From Pontimonas sp. (lineage in GTDB: Bacteria; Actinomycetota; Actinomycetes; Actinomycetales; Microbacteriaceae), in assembly GCA_017857245.1 (NCBI GenBank), contig JAFMDO010000008.1, forward strand, positions 1 through 38,266: a stretch of 38,266 nt of DNA, in the 5' to 3' direction. Below the pieces are notes generated by a model. That model searched no databases. It was not told the origin of the DNA and worked only from the letters and a program-made list of their open reading frames with translations. How positions within the stretch are numbered: the first letter of the stretch is position 1; the number at the start of each line of letters is the position of its first letter. Positions 3,596 to 10,055 of the stretch are shown here, piece after piece. The position numbers were made by a program, and so were the translations under genes.

Positions 3596-4834
3596 GTGCC
3601 AGAAACCCGTCGCTCCACCATTGTTTTCGCCCTTACCGGGGTCATTCTTCTCGCCCTCGGTATTAGAACCGGGGTGGCGGCGATTGCGCCCTTGGCGCCG
3701 TCGATGGATCTGGATCTGGCAATGGAAGGCTTGCCGCTAGGAATCATTGGCACCATCCCGCCGATTGCTTACGCCTTGGCGGCCTGGTTTGCACCGTGGT
3801 TGGCGCAAAAAGTGGGGCTGGAAACCGCTGCGATTGCTGTGGGAGTGCTTGGTGCACTGGCGCATGTGTGGCGGGGTGTGTCGCCTACCTTTCTGTCCCT
3901 TTTCGCTGCGACAGCAGTGTTGATGGTTGCTGCTGGCGTAGGAAATGTGATTCTCCCTGGCCTTGTAAAGCTCTATGCGCCGCACGCTATTGGCTCGGTC
4001 ACCGCGGCATACGGCACAGCCATGGCTGTTTCCTCTTCTGCTCCGTCCTTCTTCGGAGTGTGGATGGCAGACCTTGCGGGGTGGCGTGTCTCTCTAGGTG
4101 CGTGGGCCATTATCAGCATCGTGGGCGCGATTCCCTGGCTCTTGGTGTTGCCCTTTGCGAAACGTCGCGGCCTGGCTGAAGCAGAGCTTGCAGGCGGCCT
4201 GGCTGCGGGACCACCCAAAGTTTCGTTGTCGAAATCCCCCACAGCGGTCGCGATCATGACTATTTTTGCCGTCTCTGGCGCGATGGCGTACACGTGGTTT
4301 GCGTTATTGCCACAGTTGCTGATTGATGAAGCGGGCATGAGTGTCGAGCAGGCTGCACTAGCGCTGGGAATTTTTACCATTACGGGATTACCGATGTCGC
4401 TCATCATCCCGCCCCTAGCCCACCGGGTGGGGTGGTCGAGTATCCTCACGGGAGTTGCTGTGGCCTGTGGGATGGCGGGAATGGTAGGCCTGCTGATTGC
4501 CCCGACCTTTGCCCCCTACCTCTGGGTCGTTCTCCTAGCATTCGGACCACTGACTTTCCCGTTGGCGCTCACCCTGATTGGCCTTCGAACCGCCAACCAC
4601 CTCTCGGCCTTAGTGCTGAGTGGTTATGTCAACAAGATTGGCTACCTGTTCTCGGCAGCAGGGCCTCTGGTGGTGGGTTTTGTTTTGCAGGTGACGGATT
4701 CGTGGACCGTCAGCGTCCTGTTTTTGATGGCCGTGATCCTGATGGAGGTCCCTGCCATCTGGGTGCTGGCACGAGAGCGGAGCGTGGATGACGAACGGGC
4801 CGAAACGGACGCTTCTGCTCATTTGAGCAACTAA
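3596..4834 (+). CDS. MFS transporter, CynX/NimT-like
   Basis: A 412-residue integral membrane protein with about twelve hydrophobic segments in two halves, separated by a basic loop (FAKRRGLAEAELAGG, about residues 187-201). The N-terminal segment ILLALGIRTGVAAIAPL resembles the cyanate/nitroimidazole (CynX/NimT) branch of the major facilitator superfamily. The GTG start is nine bases after the ribF stop with no Shine-Dalgarno sequence, but a TAGTCT hexamer six bases upstream suggests leaderless expression. The substrate cannot be read from the sequence. The position just upstream of a deoR-deoC-aldehyde dehydrogenase operon suggests import of a nucleoside or sugar, but the family mostly handles small anions and other solutes, so this stays open. 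Confidence 0.85.
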   Translation: MPETRRSTIVFALTGVILLALGIRTGVAAIAPLAPSMDLDLAMEGLPLGIIGTIPPIAYALAAWFAPWLAQKVGLETAAIAVGVLGALAHVWRGVSPTFLSLFAATAVLMVAAGVGNVILPGLVKLYAPHAIGSVTAAYGTAMAVSSSAPSFFGVWMADLAGWRVSLGAWAIISIVGAIPWLLVLPFAKRRGLAEAELAGGLAAGPPKVSLSKSPTAVAIMTIFAVSGAMAYTWFALLPQLLIDEAGMSVEQAALALGIFTITGLPMSLIIPPLAHRVGWSSILTGVAVACGMAGMVGLLIAPTFAPYLWVVLLAFGPLTFPLALTLIGLRTANHLSALVLSGYVNKIGYLFSAAGPLVVGFVLQVTDSWTVSVLFLMAVILMEVPAIWVLARERSVDDERAETDASAHLSN

Positions 4835-4880: not shown

Positions 4881-5849
4881 ATGGTTACGCCCATGGTAGA
4901 CAAAGAACTGCTTGCTGTTCGGGCCGCAGAGCTCTATTACCAAGAAAACAAAACGCAAGATGAAATTGGGGCGCTTCTTCACATCACCCGCTGGAAAGTG
5001 AGCCGCCTGATTGCCCAGGCTCGCGAAGAGGGCATTATCCGTATCGAGATTGTTCACCCGCGCGCACGGCGTTTAGGGCTGGAACACGATGTGTGTGCGG
5101 CCTACGATTTGACCGCTGCAATTGTGGTCCCTCGTGACGTTGAAGATGCCGGCATTCACCACCGAGTAGCGTCGGCGGCTGCGGATTACCTCGTGTCGAT
5201 GCGCCCTTTAACTCACGTGTTGGGCGTGAGCTGGGGTAAGACGCTCCACCTCGTTGCTCAAGCCCTTCCCCAGCGGTGGTGCAACGGAGTGAAAGTCGTT
5301 CAGGTTAACGGTGCTGTGAGCCACAGTCAGTCACCCGGGTTGGCCTCGGCCACCGCGACCATGATCGCAAATAAGGGTCATGGTGATGTCACCCTGCTTC
5401 CTACCCCTGCCATTCTGGAGCGAGAAGAAACCAAACAGGCGATCGAATCTGATCGCTCCATTCGGGGTGTTCTCGCCCACGCGGCCCAGGCAGACACTTA
5501 CCTTTTCAGCGCTGGACCCGCCACCGAAGTGAGCATTCACGTGCAGTCGGGGTATATCAACCACGATGATGTGCAGCGCCTACAGGACAAAGGTGCGGTG
5601 GGGGATGTTCTTGGCCGCTACATCACCCAGGAAGGCAACATCGCCGATACCGAGCTGGATAACCGAACCCTGGGGCTTTCCTTGGAAAGCCTTCGTCAGG
5701 CTCCCCGCAGCATTGCGGTGGTGTCAGGCGCGGATAAACACCAGGTGGCCCTGGCTATTGCCCGCAGCTCGTTGGCCAGTGTAATGATTATGGATGAAGC
5801 CACCGCAACTTTTTTGCTCGACAATCAACCAAAGGACACCACCCCATGA
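4881..5849 (+). CDS. deoR: SorC/DeoR-like transcriptional regulator
   Basis: A 322-residue regulator with an N-terminal helix-turn-helix at about residues 24-47 (TQDEIGALLHITRWKVSRLI), then a SorC-type sugar-phosphate-binding domain to the end (VLGVSWGKTL near 112-121). Bacillus DeoR belongs to this family and is released from DNA by deoxyribose 5-phosphate. Overlap with deoC by four bases (ATGA at 5846-5849) makes the same effector likely here. The ATG at 4881 fits a leaderless start behind TAGCTT; the ATG at 4893 is an alternative. A symbol other than deoR could be used, since only family and context support it. Confidence 0.85.
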   Translation: MVTPMVDKELLAVRAAELYYQENKTQDEIGALLHITRWKVSRLIAQAREEGIIRIEIVHPRARRLGLEHDVCAAYDLTAAIVVPRDVEDAGIHHRVASAAADYLVSMRPLTHVLGVSWGKTLHLVAQALPQRWCNGVKVVQVNGAVSHSQSPGLASATATMIANKGHGDVTLLPTPAILEREETKQAIESDRSIRGVLAHAAQADTYLFSAGPATEVSIHVQSGYINHDDVQRLQDKGAVGDVLGRYITQEGNIADTELDNRTLGLSLESLRQAPRSIAVVSGADKHQVALAIARSSLASVMIMDEATATFLLDNQPKDTTP

Positions 5850-6856
5850 GCACCAGAGTCACCGCACTCGCGCCCACTGATCGGTCTCACTCCGTTCTGG
5901 GCTCCGGGGCAACCGAGAAAGCCCTGACCACCTTCCTCAATGGCATCCCGGGTGTTGACACGGTCGGCGCAGAGGCTCGAGCAGCAGGCTTTGCGACCCG
6001 GTCGATCAAGACCACCTCGAAGATGGCCGGTCTTGACATGATCATGTCGATGGTGGACTTGACGACGTTGGAGGGTGCGGACACCCGCGGCAAGGTGCAC
6101 ACGCTTGCCCAGAAAGCAACTCTGCCTGACCCTTTCGACCCCACAGCCCCGTCGGTGGCAGCGGTGTGTGTCTATGGCGACAAGGTGGCTCAAGTCAGAG
6201 AGTCACTAGGTTCCTGGCACATTTCACATCGAGCGGATGGAATTGCCGTCGCAGCCGTGGCAACCGCGTTCCCGAGCGGTCGGGCTAGCTTGCCAGTCAA
6301 AATTTTGGATACCGAATATGCCGTGTCTGAAGGTGCCGATGAAATCGACATGGTGATCGACCGTGGCGCCTTCCTCTCGGGCTCCTGGGGCTTGGTTTAT
6401 GACCAGATTGTGGCGGTCAAGGAAGCGTGCAGGCGAGGAGATGGCAGCTACGCCCACCTCAAGGTCATTCTGGAAACAGGCGAACTTGCCACCCTTGATA
6501 ACGTCCGTCGAGCCAGCTGGTTGGCGATACTTGCCGGTGCTGATTTCATCAAAACCTCCACCGGAAAAGTTGCGCCCGCGGCAACCTTGCCGGTGACGGT
6601 GACCATGCTCGAAGTCATCCGCGATTGGTATGCGATGACGGGCGAAAAGATCGGCATGAAACCTGCCGGCGGAATCAAGGCGAGCAAAGATGCGCTGCGG
6701 TATTTGGTGGCGGTTGCCGAGACAGTCGGTGAAGACTGGCTCACGCCGGACCTCTTCCGCTTTGGTGCTTCCAGTTTGCTCAACGACGTAGTGATGCAAA
6801 GACAAAAGATGCGAAACGGTCACTACAGTGGCCCCGATTATGTGAGTGTGGACTAA
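5846..6856 (+). CDS. deoC: Deoxyribose-phosphate aldolase
   Basis: A 336-residue class I aldolase that cleaves 2-deoxyribose 5-phosphate into glyceraldehyde 3-phosphate and acetaldehyde, a step in deoxynucleoside catabolism. The Schiff-base lysine lies in DFIKTSTGK (K236), the second active-site lysine in MKPAGGIK (K272), and the acid/base aspartate in DEIDMVI (D168). The protein is of the longer type; short forms are about 220-260 residues, and the extra length is an N-terminal region of about 60 residues. The ATG at 5846 overlaps the regulator stop by four bases and has AAAGGAC upstream. The next gene, an aldehyde dehydrogenase, starts two bases after the stop. Confidence 0.96.
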   Translation: MSTRVTALAPTDRSHSVLGSGATEKALTTFLNGIPGVDTVGAEARAAGFATRSIKTTSKMAGLDMIMSMVDLTTLEGADTRGKVHTLAQKATLPDPFDPTAPSVAAVCVYGDKVAQVRESLGSWHISHRADGIAVAAVATAFPSGRASLPVKILDTEYAVSEGADEIDMVIDRGAFLSGSWGLVYDQIVAVKEACRRGDGSYAHLKVILETGELATLDNVRRASWLAILAGADFIKTSTGKVAPAATLPVTVTMLEVIRDWYAMTGEKIGMKPAGGIKASKDALRYLVAVAETVGEDWLTPDLFRFGASSLLNDVVMQRQKMRNGHYSGPDYVSVD

Positions 6857-6858
6857 AT

Positions 6859-8316
6859 ATGACGTTTTTGGATTATGCCCCAGCGCCAGAATCGACCTCG
6901 ATTCTGAATCTCAAGCCCTCCTACGGGCTCTTCATCGGCGGGAAATTTGTTGACTCCAGCGGGTCAACCTTCGACACCATTTCACCCTCCACCGAGAAGA
7001 AAATCACCACTGTTTCTCACGCCACGGAGGACGATGTTGACCGCGCGGTGAAGGCAGCCCGAGCGGCGTATGACAAGACGTGGTCAAAATTGTCGGGGAG
7101 CGAGAGGGGAAAGTACCTGTTCCGGATTGCCCGGATCATTCAAGAACGGTCTCGCGAACTTGCGGTTGCCGAAACCCTCGACAACGGCAAGCCCATTCGC
7201 GAAACCCGTGATGTGGATCTCCCTCTGGTGGCAGCGTGGTTCTTTTACTACGCAGGCTGGGCCGACAAGCTCGAATATGCAGGGCTTGGACCCAACCCGC
7301 AGGCGCTAGGGGTTGCCGCGCAGATTGTGCCGTGGAATTTCCCGTTGCTGATGCTGGCGTGGAAGATTGCGCCGGCACTCGCTGCGGGAAATACGGTGGT
7401 CTTGAAACCGGCGGAAACAACACCGCTGACCGCTCTGCTTTTTGCAGAAATTTGCCAGCAGGCGGGTTTGCCCGATGGTGTGGTGAACATCATCACCGGA
7501 GCTGGTGCTGCTGGGGCTGCATTGGTGTCCCACCCGGGGATCAACAAGCTTGCTTTCACCGGATCCACTCCGGTGGGGCGCCAGATCGCTTCAACCCTCG
7601 CGGGGACCGGGACAAAAGTCACCCTCGAACTTGGCGGCAAGGGCGCAAATATCATCTTTGATGATGCCGCAATAGACCAAGCAATCGAGGGGATTGTGAG
7701 CGGAATTTTCTTCAACCAGGGCCACGTGTGTTGCGCGGGATCGCGGCTGCTTGTCCAAGAAAACATTCACGATGATGTCGTTCACCGACTTCAGAAGCGC
7801 CTGTCCACCCTGCGCTTAGGTGACCCGCTCGATAAGAACACTGACATTGGCGCTGTTAATTCCAAGGTCCAGCTCGAACGGATCACGGAATTGGTCGGCA
7901 GCGGCGAGGGCGAGGGCGCAACGAGGTGGACCTCCGCGTGTGCGATTCCTGAAAAGGGTTTCTGGTTTGCCCCAACGGTGTTTACCGATGTGCACACCAG
8001 CCACCGCATTGCCCGCGAAGAGATCTTTGGACCTGTTCTCTCAGTGATGACCTTCCGCACCCCCGAGGAGGCTGTTGCGAAAGCAAACAACACCCCCTAC
8101 GGATTGAGTGCCGGAATCTGGACGGAGAAAGCATCGCGCATGCTGGCAATTGCGGACAAGCTTCGTGCCGGTGTGATTTGGGCCAACACGTTCAACAAGT
8201 TTGACCCCGCCAGCCCCTTTGGTGGATACCAAGAATCGGGTTACGGACGCGAAGGAGGCCGTCACGGTCTCGCCGCATACCTGAGCCCCAGCGATCAGAA
8301 AGCAGGGGGAAAATAA
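6859..8316 (+). CDS. NAD(P)-dependent aldehyde dehydrogenase, complete
   Basis: A 485-residue aldehyde dehydrogenase that should oxidise an aldehyde to the acid. All key residues are present: the oxyanion asparagine in PWNFP (N160), the cofactor-binding lysine in VLKPAE (K183), the Rossmann FTGSTPVG (about 233-240), the general base in LELGGK (E257) and the nucleophile in GHVCCAGSR (first cysteine, C291). A position two bases behind deoC suggests that acetaldehyde from the aldolase is the substrate, giving acetate. Only the catalytic type is certain; substrate and NAD/NADP preference are inferred. The stop overlaps the next start by one base (TAATG). Confidence 0.93.
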   Translation: MTFLDYAPAPESTSILNLKPSYGLFIGGKFVDSSGSTFDTISPSTEKKITTVSHATEDDVDRAVKAARAAYDKTWSKLSGSERGKYLFRIARIIQERSRELAVAETLDNGKPIRETRDVDLPLVAAWFFYYAGWADKLEYAGLGPNPQALGVAAQIVPWNFPLLMLAWKIAPALAAGNTVVLKPAETTPLTALLFAEICQQAGLPDGVVNIITGAGAAGAALVSHPGINKLAFTGSTPVGRQIASTLAGTGTKVTLELGGKGANIIFDDAAIDQAIEGIVSGIFFNQGHVCCAGSRLLVQENIHDDVVHRLQKRLSTLRLGDPLDKNTDIGAVNSKVQLERITELVGSGEGEGATRWTSACAIPEKGFWFAPTVFTDVHTSHRIAREEIFGPVLSVMTFRTPEEAVAKANNTPYGLSAGIWTEKASRMLAIADKLRAGVIWANTFNKFDPASPFGGYQESGYGREGGRHGLAAYLSPSDQKAGGK

Positions 8317-9179
8317 TGGCCAGACTCGGTGTTCCCAAGACCTACAAGCTCTACATCGGCGGAAAATTTCCTCGCTCAGAGAGTGGACACACTTTTGAGG
8401 CGAAGACTCCTAAGGGAGAGTTTTTAGCCAACGCAGCATCGGCAAGTCGAAAAGATGCCAGGGATGCCGTTGTGGCAGCACGGGCCGCGTTCCCCGGGTT
8501 CGCAGGGCTCACCGCGTATAACCGCGGCCAGATTCTTTATCGAATCGCCGAGGTGCTGGAGGGCCGACGAGATCAATTTGTGGCGGAGATTCGCGAAAGC
8601 GAAGGTGTCAGCTCTAGGGCTGCGGGCACCCAGGTTGACGCCGCCATTGACACGTGGGTCTGGTACGCCGGTTTTGCGGATAAGTACGCTCAGATAGCCG
8701 GAAACGGTAACCCCGTGTCAGGTCCCTACTTCAACCTCTCCACGCCCGACCCCACCGGGGTCGTAGTGGCCCTAGCTCCACAGGGGGCAACAGGAGAAAG
8801 CCTGTTGGGGCTTAGCGCTGTTCTTGCCCCCATCATTACCAGCGGTAACACCGCGGTCATCCTGTCGCACTTTTCTCAACCGCTATCAGCGATGAGTTTT
8901 GCCGAAGTGCTGGCCACCAGCGATGTTCCCGGCGGTGTCGTTAATATCCTGACCGGTGACCCCTCTGTCATCATGCCGTGGATGGCTTCTCACGCTGACG
9001 TCAATGCTCTGGATCTCGCCGGCGGGAGTGGTTACGAGGCTCTCGGGTGGGAGCAAGCTGCCGCCGAAACGCTCAAGCGTGTCTCCCCTCCGAGGGAGGG
9101 CATCCCTGCACCGGGCTTGGGTCGGATCACTGCGTTTGTCGAAATCAAGACCGTGTGGCATACCAAGGCGCTGGGTTAG
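8316..9179 (+). CDS. Short aldehyde-dehydrogenase-like protein without catalytic domain
   Basis: A 287-residue protein aligning with the first half of the preceding enzyme (KLYIGGKF near 11-18, PTGVVVALAP near 147-156, GGVVNILTGD near 211-220). The active-site features are changed: the PWNFP asparagine motif is replaced by APQGATGE, the KPAE lysine by SHFSQ, FTGS by DLAGGSG, and the catalytic glutamate and cysteine region is absent. The Rossmann-like part runs directly into a short tail (TAFVEIKTVWH). The frame is intact and tightly coupled on both sides (TAATG upstream, truB ATG immediately after the TAG), so it looks like a maintained pseudoenzyme rather than decay. A regulatory or structural partner role for the full enzyme is a hypothesis. 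Confidence 0.8.
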   Translation: MARLGVPKTYKLYIGGKFPRSESGHTFEAKTPKGEFLANAASASRKDARDAVVAARAAFPGFAGLTAYNRGQILYRIAEVLEGRRDQFVAEIRESEGVSSRAAGTQVDAAIDTWVWYAGFADKYAQIAGNGNPVSGPYFNLSTPDPTGVVVALAPQGATGESLLGLSAVLAPIITSGNTAVILSHFSQPLSAMSFAEVLATSDVPGGVVNILTGDPSVIMPWMASHADVNALDLAGGSGYEALGWEQAAAETLKRVSPPREGIPAPGLGRITAFVEIKTVWHTKALG

Positions 9180-10055
9180 ATGATTTCGGGGATAGCCCTG
9201 GTTGATAAAGAGCTGGGTGTTTCCTCCCACCATGTCGTCGCTCAAGCAAGACGAGCGCTGGGGACCAAAAAAATCGGCCACGCGGGAACTCTGGACCCCG
9301 CAGCAACCGGACTGCTCGTATTGGGGGTGGGGCGGGGAACACGTTTATTGACCTTTATTGTGGGGGCCGACAAGACCTATCGCGCCACTATGCGTTTGGG
9401 CTATGCGACCACGACAGATGACGCACAAGGCAGGGCGTTGGAGGCACAAGGGAATCTTTCTCTCTGCACTCCAGAAGCCATCGCCCAGGCGGCCGTGGGG
9501 TTCACGGGCGTGATTGAGCAGGTTCCTTCAAGCTTTAGCGCCATCAAGGTGGATGGAAAAAGGGCCTACGCGCTGGCGCGTGAAGGCAAGGAAGTAACCC
9601 TCAAAGCCCGGCAAGTGACCGTTCATTCCCTGACGGTTGGCCACAGCGTCGCGGGGCAAGGTTTCATCGATGTCGAGCTGGTGGTGGAGTGTTCTTCGGG
9701 GACCTATATCCGTGCGTTGGCCCGCGATATCGGTGCCGTATTGGGGGTGGGCGGTCACTTGGTGGCCCTGACCCGAGACCGGATAGGTCCTTTTAGCGTT
9801 GAGTCAGCATCGCGCGCCGAGGATTTGACTGAGGCGTCGCTGCTCAGCCTGGCCGAGGTGGCCCGCCACATTATGCCTGTGGTGAAGGTTGGCGTCGATG
9901 AAGCCGATGATTTGCGACACGGCCGCGCCGTTGACGCCGAGTCCTGGCCTGCTGATCAACCTCTGGCTGCGCTGGAAGAAGCATCTGGTGAACTTGTTGC
10001 CGTGGTCGAGTCCCGTGCAGGTGCAAGCCGTATCCTGATGGGCGTAGCCAGCTAA
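9180..10055 (+). CDS. truB: tRNA pseudouridine-55 synthase
   Basis: A 291-residue enzyme that makes the T-loop pseudouridine at position 55 of tRNAs. The motif GHAGTLDPAATG (about residues 33-44) carries the catalytic aspartate D39; the N-terminal VDKELGVSSHHVV and the KTYRATMRLG segment are also family hallmarks, and a C-terminal part of about 70 residues resembles the actinobacterial extension. The ATG directly abuts the TAG of the pseudo-aldehyde dehydrogenase, with no room for its own leader, so this tRNA gene appears to be the last or a middle cistron of the deo operon. Confidence 0.95.
   Translation: MISGIALVDKELGVSSHHVVAQARRALGTKKIGHAGTLDPAATGLLVLGVGRGTRLLTFIVGADKTYRATMRLGYATTTDDAQGRALEAQGNLSLCTPEAIAQAAVGFTGVIEQVPSSFSAIKVDGKRAYALAREGKEVTLKARQVTVHSLTVGHSVAGQGFIDVELVVECSSGTYIRALARDIGAVLGVGGHLVALTRDRIGPFSVESASRAEDLTEASLLSLAEVARHIMPVVKVGVDEADDLRHGRAVDAESWPADQPLAALEEASGELVAVVESRAGASRILMGVAS

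Follow-up and report, generated by a model that had tools for sequence, protein, structure and literature searches.

Two adjacent genes in the window, the 38,266-nt stretch of Pontimonas sp. DNA analyzed here, very probably constitute a two-gene form of ALDH16, in which the second product (beta) would serve as a structural pseudo-subunit of a putative alpha-beta acetaldehyde dehydrogenase acting after DeoC. The genes resemble the catalytic and the non-catalytic half of a protein that elsewhere is one chain, the parts predicted to hold an ALDH oligomer together are kept in beta and lacking from the first product (alpha), and they are found side by side, usually with deoC, across Actinomycetota.

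Two genes resembling the halves of ALDH16

The window belongs to a genome assembly of 1.28 Mb in 77 contigs, and all of the genes concerned lie on its plus strand. An MFS transporter of uncertain operon membership (3596–4834) stands upstream, followed by a SorC/DeoR-type sugar-responsive transcriptional regulator (4881–5849), the likely regulator of the operon, and by deoC (5846–6856), encoding a deoxyribose-phosphate aldolase of 336 aa. The next gene (6859–8316) encodes alpha, a catalytic subunit of the ALDH16 N-terminal type (485 aa), and is followed by the gene for beta (8316–9179), a separate pseudo-ALDH of the ALDH16 C-terminal type (287 aa), and by truB (9180–10055). The beta frame is open throughout from its ATG start, as the sequence-only reading had stated. 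That reading also took beta to be translationally coupled on both sides, which holds upstream, where the beta ATG overlaps the TAA stop of alpha by one base in a different frame; downstream, the beta stop TAG abuts the truB ATG at 9180 with zero overlap. The upstream link is widely conserved; truB lies directly 3′ of beta in only three (L039–L041) of the best 80 named loci, and a functional link to truB was rejected for this reason.

Against the Pfam Aldedh profile, beta matched positions 6–233 of 461, the N-terminal half only (E 3.6e-32). A phmmer search of PDB returned bacterial ALDH16 as its top match (E 1e-48), the best-matching part being residues 498–762 of 6MVR (domain i-Evalue 4.5e-37), with only 1.1e-10 for the first half of the same entry. 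The best PDB match of alpha was 6MVR residues 11–478 (E 7.8e-164), followed by the next protein at 1.8e-128. In terms of ALDH16, beta was thus identified as the C-terminal pseudo-domain and alpha as the catalytic N-terminal one. In NCBIfam, no row among the 25 best for either protein reached its cut-off. Entry 6MVR, like 6MVS, 6MVT and 6MVU, presumably represents the Loktanella protein LsALDH16. The order of the halves is the same in both systems, the difference being that bacterial ALDH16 (6MVR) is a single chain of 767 residues whereas the window carries two genes in different frames with one shared base. The earlier statement that no known role could be attached to beta has therefore been superseded, since beta has a homolog of solved structure in the ALDH16 C-terminal domain. 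A further partial Aldedh match is present in the genome of the window (G000:C40:86173-87015), covering profile positions 32–299 within a 480-residue open frame.

An AlphaFold2 model of beta built from 40 sequences (mean pLDDT 88.6) gave the ALDH16 entries 6mvs, 6mvu and 6mvr as the first three rows in Foldseek. In VIA-align the ALDH16 entries (Z 35.5–35.6) tied by fold with many other ALDHs (best 36.0), so the assignment of beta to ALDH16 rests on its sequence. Residues 5–287 of the model spanned residues 15–498 of ALDH2, with 270 aligned (8dr9, VIA-align), and the final residues (about 273–284) corresponded to the C-terminus of classical ALDHs. Because beta aligns both to the NAD half and to the C-terminal end, the missing catalytic domain, about 200 residues long, lies internally. 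The catalytic domain is absent, as the sequence-only reading had it, but the protein does not break off behind the NAD-binding half: the loss is internal and the C-terminal end is retained.

In an alignment of 46 alpha and 46 beta rows, N160, K183, E257 and C291 of alpha were present in all 46 alpha rows, and the catalytic residue was found in none of the 46 beta rows at any of the four columns, the Cys column being a gap in every one. The loss of the oxyanion Asn, the cofactor Lys, the catalytic Glu and the Cys domain, read previously from this one sequence, is thereby extended to the whole set. The C-terminal halves of single-chain homologs likewise had none of these four catalytic residues in any of 18 rows. 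Beta hence lacks the catalytic Cys, Glu and oxyanion Asn of active classical ALDHs and resembles the second half of ALDH16, being a pseudo-ALDH without catalytic domain that is nearest to the ALDH16 C-domain (by sequence, given the VIA-align tie). Alpha in turn resembles the first half, being nearer to ALDH16 than to other ALDHs and keeping the Asn, Lys, Glu and Cys.

Animal ALDH16A1, a member of the same family, is described as a pseudoenzyme (PMC10650815, PMC8160307). By that description, the whole animal protein is without the catalytic triad, whereas in the window this is true only of the separate second half. As for classical ALDHs (ALDH2, ALDH1 and BADH type), beta shares their fold in the NAD half as well as at the C-terminus and alpha is a full ALDH, the difference being that classical enzymes hold active site and oligomerization hairpin within one chain (7/7 rows).

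Oligomerization parts of alpha and beta

To compare the oligomerization-domain hairpin, residues between two anchors were counted in an alignment of the 46 alpha, 46 beta, 18 fused N-terminal, 18 fused C-terminal and 7 classical ALDH rows. The stretch comprised 35 residues in all 46 beta rows (in the window, beta residues 119–155, positions 8670–8780), 32 in all 18 fused C halves and 33–38 in all seven classical ALDHs, so counted. In alpha it was shortened to 24–26 residues in 45 of 46 rows (in the window, alpha residues 133–158, positions 7255–7332, where by this count the hairpin is absent), and fused N halves had 22–24 (18/18). The exceptional alpha row (L236) has 33 residues, attributable to a loop insertion.

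The C-terminal strand is distributed in the same way. Beta residues 273–284 (9132–9167), which align with the classical ALDH C-terminal end, carry an ExKTxW motif; when full ORFs were examined, 40 of the 46 beta rows had a motif of this type (39 of 46 when rows ended at BLAST ends), and the remaining six terminate in a TVWH-containing variant. A related motif, [EQR]xK[TN]xW, mostly QVKNxW, is present in all 18 fused C halves. An EVKTV-like strand was found in none of 159 alpha C-terminal tails, of which 115 stop 9–19 residues past a SGxGREGG-type motif; these tails were taken as the first pattern match per locus in 159 of 160 loci, and a few may belong to other ALDHs. In the model of alpha (pLDDT 72.4, with much of the C-terminal third below 50), the hairpin stretch contains no long pair of strands; as this model is only moderate, the absence of hairpin and strand from alpha is argued from the alignments.

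Sequence and structure prediction thus indicate that alpha and beta are complementary, with beta contributing a Rossmann half, the hairpin and the C-terminal strand and alpha the full active site. The same division, a first half without hairpin and end strand and a second half with both, is a feature of ALDH16. The two proteins of the window were classified as a split variant of ALDH16 rather than a single-chain member, since the three other ALDH16 features examined (the first half, the second half and this division of parts) were found and the single polypeptide was not: the halves are two ORFs in different frames, and they are split in 80/80 named loci and in 81/81 phylum loci with alpha.

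The LsALDH16 dimer mimics the classical ALDH tetramer (PMC8160307). From this arrangement together with the complementary anatomy, we infer a unit of the same kind, built here from alpha and beta as two chains. They would be co-translated and paired as alpha-beta, probably as alpha2-beta2, with beta replacing the second protomer of the classical dimer and providing the oligomerization arm missing from alpha, the part played by the C-terminal domain in single-chain ALDH16.

The N-terminus of alpha (window positions 6859–6910) includes a YAPAPES peptide that is invariant in 31/31 aligned alphas, and four fused plasmid proteins start with MEYGP[AS]PE. By pattern count, an N-terminal PAPE motif is uneven across the locus sets (74/80, 17/83, 8/15 and 4/7). 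The YAPAPES segment might serve as a tail for docking or wrapping.

Selection on beta and its pairing with alpha

A short ALDH without catalytic residues invites the explanation that beta is a decaying pseudogene, left by a recent deletion of the catalytic domain from a second ALDH copy, and in one genome of the same genus (G001) the gene indeed lies in two overlapping frames. Nevertheless, beta was matched in 17 of 18 same-genus genomes and was full-length (286–287 aa) in 15 of them; in G007 it is broken by contig ends, and in G003 (86% complete) no beta match was found within this set. The full-length copies sit in open frames of only 294–373 aa, so a full ALDH does not take the place of beta, and full-length orthologs pointing to a recent deletion were not found at this place among the same-genus matches; a recent in-lineage deletion was rejected accordingly. 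The same truncated form recurs across Actinomycetota. In a pairwise NG86 analysis, the five beta pairs with dS ≤1.25 gave omega values of 0.031, 0.077, 0.041, 0.034 and 0.047, and among the 22 pairs listed, more diverged, near-saturated ones (dS >1.3) reached about 0.2. The dN/dS test that the sequence-only reading had proposed thus returned purifying selection. Beta is under purifying selection and is not decaying, and the pseudogene explanation, to which we give almost no credence, was rejected both for this selection and for the conserved truncated form.

The pairing of beta with alpha was followed through 396 genomes of Actinomycetota, scoring only the top candidates per genome. Beta matches fell into two score groups, at least 299 bits versus at most 140. 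Beta was present in 84 genomes and alpha (E 1e-190 or better) in 82, both together in 81, alpha only in one (G172) and beta only in three (G248, G304 and G324); the alpha match of G172 begins at a contig end, and in G248, G304 and G324 there are partial alphas, likewise at contig ends. In one family (f19), all 14 listed genomes are without beta and without alpha, a sharp family-level absence, and the single beta match in this family (G272) has an ordinary-ALDH score.

Gene order was equally constant. In the best 80 of 573 confirmed stretches (the named loci), alpha lay upstream in a separate frame in 80/80, at a gap of −5 to 203 nt, and deoC was present in 78, the other two (L041 and L055) terminating at contig ends. 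Flanks were also read for every one of the remaining 83 beta genomes in the phylum sample: alpha was upstream in 81, always split, deoC stood no more than about 5.5 kb away in 76, and the seven loci without deoC (five) or without alpha (two) have less than 1 kb of contig upstream and lie at contig ends. This search for short ALDHs beside deoC and a full ALDH, which had been suggested as a check, found that arrangement in most of these loci. Tight alpha-beta coupling is not universal, as the spacing is 235–2120 nt in 5/81 phylum loci, and in one of the 81 (L239) the alpha frame appears broken. Three loci (L214, L221 and L223) have a similar small ORF of about 77 residues (MAxxRKAxGALATGAVAxGAGAVGALxIGRLAxGQ...) between alpha and beta, just 5′ of beta.

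Fused relatives, deoC and the proposed pathway

Single-chain relatives were found outside Actinomycetota. Seven Pseudomonadota plasmid loci (L148–L153 and L155), selected among the best 40 of 753 records, carry the fused gene without exception, with deoC immediately upstream in each; L154, on an actinomycete replicon, is split, with deoC. Among 151 genomes of the phylum of G435, presumably Armatimonadota since the G435 record bears the title Fimbriimonadaceae, 16 matched, at 17 places, 15 fused and two split. Fifteen places were read with flanks, leaving out G527 (a near-copy of G520) and contig C134 of G435; 14 were fused and one split, and deoC was found in 12, the stretch read being without it in 3/15. 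G454 has the split form in this phylum. Fused ORFs measure 772–798 aa in four translated plasmid proteins, and the open frames of 15 from the phylum of G435 measure 766–852. These fused proteins (plasmid and L158–L172) are alike to the pair of the window in having the same halves, the same missing and kept oligomerization parts (18 rows) and usually a nearby deoC, and differ in being a single ORF and in standing on a separate side of the tree. In both the N-half and the C-half tree, which have very long outgroup branches and from which the outgroup rows L033 and L034 (probably wrong-frame ORFs) were left out, split (46 rows) and fused (18 rows) forms fell on opposite sides, with one change in each tree. 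Path lengths of the two halves correlated at r 0.95 over all 64 rows (2016 pairs) and at 0.84 over the 1035 split-only pairs.

Split operons of the Actinomycetota kind also appear in records titled Fimbriimonadaceae (L049, G435 C134), Rubrivirga (L090, G433) and Acidobacteria (L042, G434). The phylum drawn for G433 gives the same places as that of the window, and a fused copy is present in G435 as well, which together suggest wrong titles or contaminated bins for these three; in particular, the split gene on C134 may be a binning contaminant, given the fused copy of G435.

The rates and the fused chains bear on a rival reading in which beta is no stoichiometric structural subunit but a free regulator or decoy, for instance a sensor of NAD or aldehyde that acts on alpha or on transcription. 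Beta retains a Rossmann-type half, and its evolution along the tree is about twice as rapid as that of alpha (mean path 1.90 vs 0.83 among split rows), as would fit a less constrained role. The parts that it keeps are, however, oligomerization parts complementing those missing from alpha, and fused homologs carry both halves in a single chain and therefore at a 1:1 ratio, which makes a free regulator improbable. The suggestion that beta might stabilize or scaffold the enzyme encoded upstream is instead the best reading of its co-occurrence with alpha, its purifying selection and the complementary structural parts.

Gene context points to the pathway, since deoC adjoins ALDH16 genes in three phyla. 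DeoC produces acetaldehyde and glyceraldehyde-3-phosphate (PMC6365646), which makes acetaldehyde the likely substrate of alpha-beta. DeoC would release acetaldehyde from 2-deoxyribose-5-phosphate, the alpha-beta complex would oxidize it to acetate, and the acetate would then be activated by acetyl-CoA synthetase. The window's own genome encodes acetyl-CoA synthetase, but PF01676 (deoB type) and PF07831 (pyrimidine phosphorylase) had no match in it at E 0.001, a point against this pathway. The family model matches the DeoC of the window only from residue 67 of 336 aa, which indicates a long N-terminal extension, and the deoC product beside the fused ALDH16 at L148 is likewise long (335 aa).

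Aldolase-dehydrogenase complexes such as DmpFG raise the idea of beta as a dock that joins DeoC to alpha, with channelling of acetaldehyde between them. The closeness of deoC to ALDH16 genes in 76/83 Actinomycetota loci, 12/15 loci of the phylum of G435 and 7/7 Pseudomonadota plasmid loci would agree with such a role, but co-regulation of one pathway accounts for adjacency, the closest relative of beta belongs to the ALDH chain as one of its domains, and in the phylum of G435 deoC was not found nearby in three loci and lies on the opposite strand in another (L283). We consider channelling highly unlikely and retain the structural pseudo-subunit as the explanation of beta.

A separate, apparently obligate gene for the pseudo-subunit and the link of ALDH16 with deoC in three phyla both look new. 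None of the literature matches listed, whose coverage did not extend to the main ALDH16 structure paper, described a split ALDH16 or tied ALDH16 to deoC or deoxyribose. Read from the raw genome, beta would be a decayed or unexplained ALDH; as part of a split ALDH16 it acquires a defined partner. The repeated deoC link in three phyla offers a candidate pathway and substrate for ALDH16. As the pseudo-half is a gene of its own, the role of a catalytically dead ALDH domain becomes directly testable: it can be deleted, swapped or titrated, whereas a single-chain ALDH16 requires cutting the protein. More speculatively, and with considerable doubt, ALDH16 could be by ancestry an acetaldehyde dehydrogenase of the DeoC pathway, with the Actinomycetota form an obligate alpha2-beta2 enzyme having a separately encoded pseudoenzyme subunit, and the pseudo-half may then also position DeoC for acetaldehyde transfer. 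If this is true, the catalytically dead ALDH16A1 of animals would have descended from a deoxyribose-catabolic enzyme.
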